Below are positions 17,810 through 20,227 of a DNA stretch of 20,227 nucleotides, piece by piece. The stretch comes from a virus, in the IMG/VR virus record IMGVR_UViG_3300000115_000273, positions 94 through 20,320 of that record; one strand, given 5' to 3'. Within the stretch, counting starts at the first letter, position 1. Each line of letters opens with the position of its first letter. Position numbers and translations under genes: made by a program. The notes under the pieces are model-generated. The model searched no databases, was not told the origin of the DNA, and worked only from the letters and a program-made list of their open reading frames with translations.

Positions 17810-19345
17810 CTATAGCCTAGACCAAAAATTAAACCTCTTAGGTGTTGGTCGTTTTTTAAATACATCAAAGTCTCTTTTAGCATTAAACGAAGATAGGGGC
17901 TTTTGTCCAGAAATTAATTGCCTACCTTCCCCAGCACCTAACATTAAATACTGCAACGCATCATGAATATGAGAATACATATTCTTTTCTGGCTTATCAT
18001 CATAGCGTTCTCCAGATACTTGCATACGCCTATATGAATACCCACCTTGAAAACCTTTAATCAAAGAAGGGCAACGCCTATCTATTAAAAACGCAGACTT
18101 GCCTTCTGCCATTTTAGTTAGTTGAGCAGAAACAGATTCCAATCTAAGGTCTACACTATTAGATGGGGCTGGTGTTGCTCTAAGCCCAGCACCTCTTAAT
18201 ATTTGAAATGGTGTAGACTCATCAGTCTGCGCTCTAAAATCTCCTGCTGGATCTCCATATATATTTACATCTAAGCCTGTAAACCTAGTAGCTATCTCTT
18301 GTCTTAACAGTTCTGCAAATCTAACAATGCCCATATCAATAGCGACTATCTCACTTTGAATTAACCACCTACCTCTAACCTTTTGACCAAAAACTGCGGC
18401 TGGAGTAAGCCCAAAATCTATACCAACATACAATGGGACACCTATTGCTATAGGTATTTCTTCTTCTGCAATATGTGTCTCACTTACAAACTGTGGATAT
18501 ACTGGCTTGCCATCTTGTATAGACCCTAGCCTATTCATAACATACACATCTATCCAGCTTTTAGTCTTACCTCTTATTAAATTAGGATAGTATGTACCTA
18601 GAATATTAGATTTATTCTCTGCTTTGTCGTTCATTTCATAGGTATTAACATCCCCTTTCTCATCTAAAGTTTCTACCATAGCAGAAGGTTGTACATAAAA
18701 ACTCCAGTTATCAGGCTTAACTAGCATCTTAGCTTGTTCTCTAGGTATATGATCTGGGATAGGAACTTCCCCTGACATAATAGGCCACCAGTGATCTTCT
18801 TCTGGAGCATTAGTATCTGCAATAACTCCAGACCAGCTAGGCCCACCCTCTCGCATAGAAGGGAATCTACCTACACGCATGGTACACGCATCAATAATAC
18901 TCTTTGGAACTTCCCTTGCTTCATTCACCCATATGCCAGTCAACTCTAATGAGAGCAACTTCTTTACATCTTCGGGACGATCAAGGGCTAAGAAAAGAAT
19001 CTCTATATCTAAGTCACCCATTTTAATATGATGTGTGTAAGGCACTGACCAATGGAATCTTCCCCAAGTATTTTCAGGAAACCAATCAAGCCAAGTCTTT
19101 ATTGTAGTGGTTCTCAACTGTGGATTAGTGTTTCGGATGATAGCCCACCTACTTCTTCTAATCCCATCCTTGTTTTTCTGCTGTTCTAAAGCCCTTCTGA
19201 ATACTTCTACACAACAAGCAACAGACTTCCCAGACCCAACTGGACCTCTCACACCTCTAAAAAATGTAGAGTCCTTCATAAACGATTTAATAACACTACC
19301 ATCAGGCTTGTAACTAAACGTGGTCAATCCTTGTTTCCTTACCAA
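17810..19345 (-). CDS. terL: Terminase large subunit (packaging ATPase and nuclease, 511 aa)
   Basis: The motor that cuts and pumps DNA into the procapsid through the portal. Walker A is GPVGSGKS at residues 34-41. The Walker B-like strand with catalytic Glu is LTGIWVNEAREVP at about 134-146. The nuclease domain has its acidic triad in VGIDFGLTP (about residue 311), IYGDPAGDFRAQTDE (about 365) and HIHDALQYLMLG (about 462). Length is typical. The reported start is a TTG at 19343-19345; a second TTG at 19325-19327 (505 aa) has AAGGA 8 bases upstream and is as likely. There is no ATG before residue 23. Both starts lie inside the 60-aa gene. No small terminase subunit is recognisable. In T7 the terminase follows the fibre; here it precedes the portal. 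Confidence 0.95.
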   Translation of the reverse strand: MVRKQGLTTFSYKPDGSVIKSFMKDSTFFRGVRGPVGSGKSVACCVEVFRRALEQQKNKDGIRRSRWAIIRNTNPQLRTTTIKTWLDWFPENTWGRFHWSVPYTHHIKMGDLDIEILFLALDRPEDVKKLLSLELTGIWVNEAREVPKSIIDACTMRVGRFPSMREGGPSWSGVIADTNAPEEDHWWPIMSGEVPIPDHIPREQAKMLVKPDNWSFYVQPSAMVETLDEKGDVNTYEMNDKAENKSNILGTYYPNLIRGKTKSWIDVYVMNRLGSIQDGKPVYPQFVSETHIAEEEIPIAIGVPLYVGIDFGLTPAAVFGQKVRGRWLIQSEIVAIDMGIVRFAELLRQEIATRFTGLDVNIYGDPAGDFRAQTDESTPFQILRGAGLRATPAPSNSVDLRLESVSAQLTKMAEGKSAFLIDRRCPSLIKGFQGGYSYRRMQVSGERYDDKPEKNMYSHIHDALQYLMLGAGEGRQLISGQKPLSSFNAKRDFDVFKKRPTPKRFNFWSRL

Positions 19346-19496
19346 CCCTAATTAAATTCTCAATAGTTTGAGGAGCAATTACATCAATCATCTTATCAGC
19401 TTCATAGTCAGTGCAAAACTCTTTAGGGTAGTGTTGCATATGTGCTAACTTCACTACCCTTCGGAGTATTCTGCGATCTTCTAAACTAAGTTTCAT
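19314..19496 (-). CDS. Conserved-looking 60-aa protein of unknown function, overlapping terL
   Basis: Function is not recognised. The sequence (MKLSLEDRRILRRVVKLAHM, then YPKEFCTDYEADKMIDVIAP, then a C-terminal helix TIENLIRVGKETRIDHV) is mostly helical and charged, a plausible single small domain. The ATG has AGGA 6 bases upstream. The 3' end overlaps the start of terL by 32 bases (or 14 with the shorter terL), which points to translational coupling with the terminase. It lies directly downstream of the inverted heptamer repeat. A small terminase subunit would normally be at least twice this length, so that role is only a guess from position. Confidence 0.62.
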   Translation of the reverse strand: MKLSLEDRRILRRVVKLAHMQHYPKEFCTDYEADKMIDVIAPQTIENLIRVGKETRIDHV

Positions 19497-19508
19497 TTCT
19501 GATCCTAC

Positions 19509-19606
19509 AGTGGAGGTAACTGAGGTAACTAAGGTGACCGAAACGAATTAATATTAAGCATATATGTCGGCTCAGAGTTACCCTAGTTACCTCGGTTACC
19601 TCCACT
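19509..19606. repeat. Inverted repeat built of 3 + 3 AGGTAAC heptamers with 40-base centre
   Basis: Left arm 19509-19537 and right arm 19578-19606 are inverted copies matching at 26 of 29 positions. Within each arm a heptamer recurs at exactly 9-base spacing: AGGTAAC at 19514, AGGTAAC at 19523 and AGGTGAC at 19532; then GTTACCC at 19577, GTTACCT at 19586 and GTTACCT at 19595. The 40-base centre is AT-rich (AATTAATATTAA). The element fills the gap between the 39-aa gene, whose stop codon overlaps it, and the 60-aa gene before terL. It has no T-run, so it is not a standard terminator. Candidate roles are an operator or initiation site bound by a multimeric protein, a packaging (pac/cos-adjacent) site, or an mRNA hairpin that processes the late transcript. 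The structure is seen; the role is open. Confidence 0.85.
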
Positions 19607-19724
19607 ACTTAATAAGGCTTTTACCTTTAGTTGGTTTCTTAGCCTTCTTCTTGTCCATAACCTTCTTAGCCGCCATCATACCAGCTTTGGTATAAGGAAA
19701 CTTCTTTCCATTTACATTAGGCAT
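19605..19724 (-). CDS. Lys-rich 39-aa phage protein (MPNVNGKKFPYT type)
   Basis: This short ORF reads MPNVNGKKFPYTKAGMMAAK, then a Lys-rich helix ending KPTKGKSLIK. Thirteen of its 39 residues are Lys. The opening (MP-V-GKKFPYT--G) is one I remember from tiny proteins of many marine and T7-like phages, with no known function. The start has AAGGAAG a few bases upstream and overlaps the stop of the 45-aa Cys-rich gene by 8 bases. The stop falls in the right arm of the inverted heptamer repeat. The high charge suggests nucleic-acid contact, which is inference. Confidence 0.7.
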   Translation of the reverse strand: MPNVNGKKFPYTKAGMMAAKKVMDKKKAKKPTKGKSLIK

Positions 19725-19854
19725 CTTTCTTCCTTTCAGCTTTTTCACCTTGACAACAATCATCTACCACACATTTACAATAAGTACACTGATAATGTCC
19801 ATGCACATAAACAATATACCCTCCACCATTACATCTCTTGCATTCTGTATTCAT
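19717..19854 (-). CDS. Cys-rich 45-aa zinc-ribbon-like protein
   Basis: The short ORF reads MNTECKRCNGGGYIVYVHGH, then YQCTYCKCVVDDCC and a charged tail. Two CxxC pairs, Cys5/Cys8 and Cys23/Cys26, spaced by a Gly/Tyr/Val-rich beta-hairpin-like stretch, are the layout of a one-site zinc ribbon. Three further Cys (28, 33, 34) and His18/His20 are nearby. The first half resembles the knuckle of DnaJ-type or rubredoxin-like ribbons. The ATG has AGAGGA 7 bases upstream, inside the end of the 78-aa gene. It overlaps the next gene by 8 bases. Zinc binding is a motif-based inference; the target is unknown. Confidence 0.68.
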   Translation of the reverse strand: MNTECKRCNGGGYIVYVHGHYQCTYCKCVVDDCCQGEKAERKKDA

Positions 19855-19857
19855 GAC

Positions 19858-20094
19858 TTATTCCTCTTTACCCCCTAATACCCTTATCTGATGTTCTCTA
19901 AAAAGCTTTATTGTTTCAAAAGCATCTTTAATAGACAATCCTTCTCTTATAAGTCTTTTGTAACTATTGTAATCTACGTTAGTCTCAAAATCTTTTTTAG
20001 AATGTAAGTTAGCTAACTGCGTAGTAGTATCTTTTTTCTTTGATTTTTTAATTGCAGCAACCTTGCGTGGATCTCTTGCATATTTAGCCATCAT
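19858..20094 (-). CDS. Basic 78-aa protein of unknown function
   Basis: Function is not recognised. The N-terminal half is very basic (KYARDPRKVAAIKKSKKKDT). The C-terminal half is predicted helical with alternating charges (NSYKRLIREGLSIKDAFETI, then KLFREHQIRVLGG). There is no Cys, signal or membrane segment. The start ATG (the first of ATG ATG) overlaps the stop of the 43-aa gene in TAATG at 20092-20096. The stop is followed after 3 bases by the start of the 45-aa gene. It belongs to a tight cluster of small genes upstream of the terminase. Confidence 0.65.
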   Translation of the reverse strand: MMAKYARDPRKVAAIKKSKKKDTTTQLANLHSKKDFETNVDYNSYKRLIREGLSIKDAFETIKLFREHQIRVLGGKEE

Positions 20095-20225
20095 TACTTA
20101 CCTTTCTTTTTCTTAGGAAACCCAGCCTTCATATTAGAATAAGCTTTAGCTGTTATTGTACTCTTACTCTTTGGCCGACTAGTCCCAGCTTTCTTCCTAG
20201 CATTTATATTCTTATATAAACTCAT
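20094..20225 (-). CDS. Small basic 43-aa protein (MSLYKNINARKKAGTSRP type)
   Basis: The short ORF runs from an ATG at 20223-20225 to TAA at 20094-20096. It begins MSLYKNINARKKAGTSRPKS and ends in AYSNMKAGFPKKKKGK. This is a recognisable type of tiny phage protein, remembered from many T7-like and marine phages as L-Y-NI-A-rKkAG-s-, function unknown. It is strongly basic, with 12 Lys and 2 Arg in 43 residues. The gene starts 2 bases from the window edge, so its ribosome site cannot be seen, and an upstream in-frame start cannot be excluded. Confidence 0.68.
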   Translation of the reverse strand: MSLYKNINARKKAGTSRPKSKSTITAKAYSNMKAGFPKKKKGK

Positions 20226-20227
20226 GC

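Follow-up and report, generated by a model that had tools for sequence, protein, structure and literature searches.

The DNA analysed here, referred to as the window, is a stretch of 20,227 nucleotides that carries the structural half of the genome of a podovirus related to Pelagibacter phage Hodr (65% in terL) and to Methylophilales phage MEP301 (41%). Between two late genes of this marine bacterial virus lies a palindrome of 98 bases (19509-19606). This element occupies a 108-base gap between the stop codon of a gene for a small basic protein and a 60-aa gene ahead of terL, all on the minus strand. The small basic-protein gene (19605-19763) touches the element with its stop codon, and its translation more likely starts at an internal ATG (MPNVNGKKFPYTKAG...), because a homologue in G014 starts there. 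The 60-aa gene (19314-19496), which follows directly after the element and is kept ahead of terL in relatives, is succeeded by the gene for the terminase large subunit, terL (17810-19345). An earlier note on this DNA had placed the element before the 60-aa gene and terL; this order stands, with the correction that the genes lie on the minus strand, so that the mRNA carries, in sequence, the 52-aa gene, the element, the 60-aa gene and terL. A 39-codon GTG open reading frame (VEVTEVTRVT...; 19486-19605, minus strand) runs through the element and may be due to chance, since the 9-base step of the repeats keeps the reading frame. A small cysteine-rich open reading frame, MNTECKRCNGGGYIVYVHGHYQCTYCKCVVDDCCQGEKAERKKDA, was also seen on the minus strand at 19717-19854; a likely relative is located in L029, where it lies between the 60-aa gene and terL, and the surrounding genes are shuffled from one relative to another.

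The two arms of the palindrome, as delimited by an inverted-repeat search, are 30 bases long (left, 19509-19538, plus strand; right, 19577-19606, minus strand) and complementary at 27 of 30 positions (90%). The inverted match reported previously was thus upheld, while its dimensions, given then as 29 bases matching at 26, were revised. Each arm holds three heptamers, namely AGGTAAC (19514-19520), AGGTAAC (19523-19529) and AGGTGAC (19532-19538) on the plus strand, and GGGTAAC (19577-19583), AGGTAAC (19586-19592) and AGGTAAC (19595-19601) on the minus strand. Repeat and word searches confirmed the claimed three-versus-three inverted array, in which six RGGTRAC heptamers (four AGGTAAC, one AGGTGAC and one GGGTAAC) follow one another within each arm at an exact 9-base step, with GAGGTAACY as the iteron consensus. 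The arms enclose a 38-base centre (19539-19576) with an A+T-rich core; the A+T content of this centre is 0.64, against 0.66 for this A+T-rich phage. AGGTAAC-like words were not enriched over the whole window (54 found versus 52.8 expected), whereas the spaced word pair RGGTRACNNRGGTRAC occurred 2+2 times in the record, always within the element, and its reversed control did not occur at all. What is special about the heptamers is their clustering, not their overall frequency. The best inverted-repeat score in the window was 21, compared with a maximum of 16 among 60 dinucleotide shuffles, in keeping with the earlier view that such order exceeds chance.

Two further contigs allowed the window to be placed in its genome. 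The contig L323, of 12.6 kb, shares a 484-base overlap with the window end (100% identity) and contributes most of the remaining genome half, and a third contig, L324, is 99.7-99.8% identical over its main stretches and joins L323 to the other end of the window. L324 is a sibling contig from the same population; its positions 1-229 correspond to window positions 19756-20227 but do not have most of a 78-aa gene (window about 19868-20071). This loss, close to the array, appears to be a deletion bounded by short matches. The early half of the genome encodes an O-like (lambda-O-like) replication initiator of 214 aa (L323 7884-8525, minus strand), an Erf-like annealing protein, a RecE-like exonuclease, a RusA-like resolvase and small helix-turn-helix (HTH) proteins, including one of 74 aa, together with a weak SSB match in a PHROGs scan. 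That scan, which covered ten early proteins, showed no helicase or primase. Likewise, a search of the two contigs of the phage with three profiles, VapE, AAA_25 and D5_N, gave no match to any of them. No regularly spaced iteron array was found in or beside the O-like initiator gene. Inside that gene, a 36-base imperfect palindrome (L323 8229-8264) was observed, which is a possible initiator site.

Two contigs of this phage population, besides the one that holds the window, stop 138-150 bases short of the array. Together with the single occurrence of the array, these contig ends raise the possibility of an assembly oddity or chimera, or of an inert hitchhiker, i.e., a palindromic repeat that was inserted and has no function. 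We consider this quite improbable, as the three differences between the arms speak against a simple inverted-copy artefact, and the word and spacing match those of arrays found elsewhere (see below). Contig ends at a strong hairpin would, moreover, be expected if reads fail there.

When folded as RNA, the element gave z-scores of -7.3 and -7.8 on the two strands, the latter being that of the mRNA strand. This very stable mRNA-strand fold, inserted between genes that abut in several relatives, could suit an RNA element, in which a hairpin in the late mRNA would block read-through by ribosomes or exonucleases, or be cut by RNase III, and so uncouple expression of the small genes upstream of it from that of the 60-aa gene and terL. 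A hairpin, however, needs neither the 9-base step nor the GGTAAC word of origin-like DNA arrays, and two of the three arm differences are mismatched in the mRNA strand, compared with one in the other strand. An Rfam search of the element returned no family at the gathering cut-off, with scores far below it. An intrinsic terminator was rejected as well: none was found by the criterion of a G+C-rich stem and a T run, which bears out the remark in the earlier note that the element does not look like a terminator. That note had also suggested that the arms might sequester ribosome sites; this idea was not supported and was rejected, because the likely Shine-Dalgarno sequence of the 60-aa gene, an AGGA just before TCAGAAATG, lies outside the stem. 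Apart from the stability of the fold and its position, these results tell against an RNA element, and we judge it unlikely.

To see how widely the array is shared, we examined relatives of the phage. In 78 relatives, the stretch preceding terL (up to 900 bp, with little sequence available in some of them) contained no comparable inverted repeat. The word pair was absent from 28 TerL-relative records and from five records whose initiator is identical or related to that of the phage, of which L324, from the same population, ends before the site. The array was missing in relatives with a terS 65-78% identical to that of this phage and in relatives with O-like initiators, including 57% identical ones. 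A BLAST search of the element against phages and plasmids found no match. Where relatives were inspected, the gene upstream either adjoins the 60-aa gene directly or is separated from it by a short gap that differs from the one in the window. A conserved family element at the same place was consequently rejected, as no array was seen in the 78 loci, the 28 TerL-relative records or the five initiator-relative records. Since none of the relatives examined has the array, the element is a lineage-specific insert rather than a packaging or late-operon signal that is conserved among them. Absence from close relatives with the same gene order had been named beforehand as an outcome that would count against the original proposal; this absence was found, and a lineage-specific function is still compatible with it.

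The same comparisons bear on whether the element is an operator, at which a transcription regulator of the phage (e.g., the 74-aa HTH protein encoded in the early half) would control late expression. The phage does encode small HTH regulators, and inverted multi-site arrays are usual for operators. Nevertheless, relatives with such HTH proteins are without the array, the site is internal to a co-directional late operon, and no sigma-70-like promoter was found near the element. An operator is, in our estimation, very improbable.

Stem-loops of a different kind were found near terS. Among relatives for which sufficient sequence was available ahead of terS, most have the strongest stem-loop of the searched stretch within or close to the divergent gap that separates terS from the first early gene. 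Palindromes of about 1 kb, with an arm identity of 71-72%, are present in this phage (L323 10409-11405), in L047 (748-1834) and in L059 (1-1157), and shorter imperfect ones are found near the terS gap in L049, L061, L095, L091, L073 and L030, such that the overall range is about 0.1-1.2 kb. The gap in L323 resembles a decayed inverted copy of a 143-aa early gene. Although the sequence of these palindromes varies between relatives, pairing persists in each. When seven relatives were aligned, 26 of the 101 pairs predicted changed on both sides in at least one sequence; the covariation term of the fold was unfavourable (+3.4 kcal/mol) because the outer stem is different throughout in L091 and L103, and the individual fold was retained where shown (L091). 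The idea that the window element is one of these stem-loops was rejected, given that they have no comparable iterons and another location, and that the phage has its own besides. A CAAACATTTTTAGYYAAAAAGG motif just downstream of terS is conserved in L029, L030, L032, L042, L137 and others; it was not found in the window within three mismatches, and a similar stretch is present in the gap after terS of L321.

Similar arrays in other contigs were sought with a pattern taken from the window, i.e., GGTAAC, 3 N, GGTAAC, 42-72 N, GTTACC, 3 N, GTTACC. Matches were obtained in 17 viral and 30 bacterial contigs, while a reversed-word control matched one viral contig, itself another iteron array. Removal of near-duplicates left 38 non-redundant loci, with de-duplication and choice of the nearest gene decided after some loci had been seen. 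At 26 of the 38 loci, a fraction that is descriptive because of these later choices and because there was no matched neighbourhood control, the array overlaps a replication helicase or primase gene or lies within about 125 bp of one. The genes concerned encode VapE, D5/Pox_D5, DUF5906, DUF927, DUF3631 and AAA_25 proteins, several of them with a C-terminal winged helix. The phage contig L320 has a three-versus-three array together with a primase gene. The remaining 12 loci include bacterial ones without a replication gene found beside the array (none at L144, L146, L150, L151, L153, L160, L161 and L170). GGTAACC palindromes in bacterial contigs, several of them from Bacteroidales, were observed at L144, L150, L152, L157, L160 and L161, with no adjoining replication gene where checked; these are perhaps a separate class of intergenic hairpin. 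A second pattern, consisting of three tandem words, matched mostly coding repeats, which were discarded unless intergenic; of the 14 intergenic cases with a large gene at up to about 250 bp, 9 had VapE, D5, DUF927 or AAA_25 as the nearest gene. Over 48 inverted arrays, the A+T content of the centre was on average 0.11 higher than that of its own locus, and it was higher in 38 of them. This array architecture beside replication helicase and primase genes makes the window element look like an origin-type iteron site.

These arrays also bear on whether the element is a packaging site (pac or cos) recognized by the small terminase or the packaging complex. The element is near terL, many of the other arrays stand between replication and terminase genes, and in L005, L013, L016 and L018 similar phage arrays lie directly ahead of terS. 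The latter are non-coding, consist of GAGGTAACYGAGGTAAC words and adjoin small basic-protein genes, as in the window. They differ, however, in being dispersed pairs of direct words rather than a single three-versus-three palindrome, and the L013 record (L173) encodes an AEP-type primase and DNA polymerase A. Loci with no terminase in view (e.g., Amycolatopsis, Prim-Pol plus DUF3631, L165/L171) also carry the array, which favours replication over packaging. Given also the absence of the array where terS is 65-78% identical, we regard a packaging site as distinctly unlikely.

We are about evenly divided as to whether the element is an origin-type initiator-binding site, inserted in the late operon apart from the replication genes; this candidate function is read from the sequence comparisons, in which word, step and inversion are shared with arrays beside primase-helicase genes and so group the element with origin-type sites. 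The O-like initiator encoded by the phage, whose gene holds no regularly spaced array, also speaks for this reading. On the other side stand the negative VapE, AAA_25 and D5_N searches of the two contigs, the relatives that have O-like initiators but no array, and the bacterial arrays beside which no replication gene was found. The earlier note had offered a DNA site for a multimeric protein, with a replication start among the options; that part fits the array comparison, and a packaging site or late operator as a conserved signal does not. As a double-stranded origin-type site, the element would present two inverted sets of three iterons, spaced by 9 bases and flanking a short centre, to an oligomeric replication initiator, and it would have entered the late operon in this phage lineage after being acquired from elsewhere. 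We infer both that a protein binds the element and what that protein might be. One candidate binder would be the O-like initiator of the phage itself, making the element an accessory origin; the other would be the initiator of a satellite, plasmid or prophage residing in the same cell, in which case the element would be an orphan origin capturing or titrating a foreign replicase. These are probably the two likeliest binders, with about equal standing. A bolder version is possible but doubtful, namely that a phage apparently dependent on the host replisome carries the working origin of a satellite or plasmid with a VapE/D5/AAA_25 initiator, as a decoy titrating the initiator of a competitor or to borrow its replicase, and that one GGTAAC word with a 9-base step serves unrelated helicase folds across phyla.

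If the element does bind an initiator, it would be an origin lying apart from the enzyme it is usually paired with, amid packaging genes, in a group of marine phages in which no helicase or primase was found in the members examined. It would then provide a simple test case for phage decoy origins directed against rival elements. More broadly, the survey points to an origin word, GGTAAC repeated every 9 bases, that is common to sites next to helicases of different folds from Proteobacteria, Actinobacteria and others; a limited literature search found no prior description of such a word.

Several known systems can be compared with the element. In the lambda-type origin, iterons are bound by the O protein, and the likeness lies in the O-like initiator encoded by the window phage; the window array, however, is neither in nor near the initiator gene, and it is absent where homologous initiators occur. 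The origin of pRN1 is a stem-loop of about 100 bp with a 21-nt stem, which works when moved away from the replication gene (PMC4234260). The window element matches it in size, but the pRN1 stem-loop lies 3' of a Prim-Pol/SF3 gene and is without iterons, whereas the window element is not 3' of such a gene. No GGTAAC repeats were found in phage BIP-1 in the region near the stem-loop of that study (PMC4234260). A parallel is offered by the iteron origins of primase-helicase elements, to which phage P4 alpha also belongs. In SaPI/SCCmec-type systems, an oligomeric helicase opens the origin and binds iterons close to the gene that encodes it; the iterons bound by SCCmec Cch2 lie downstream of the Cch2 gene, and those recognized by SaPI Rep are likewise downstream (PMC7581432). 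In such origins the array adjoins or lies within the helicase gene, whereas a cognate helicase or primase, adjacent or elsewhere in the genome, was not found in either contig of the window phage as far as VapE, AAA_25 and D5_N are concerned. Short direct iterons are nonetheless common to the SaPI Rep and SCCmec Cch2 origins, regular iterons in inverted sets are present in the window element, and the arrays beside VapE, D5, DUF927, DUF3631 and AAA_25 genes have the same 9-base step and inversion.
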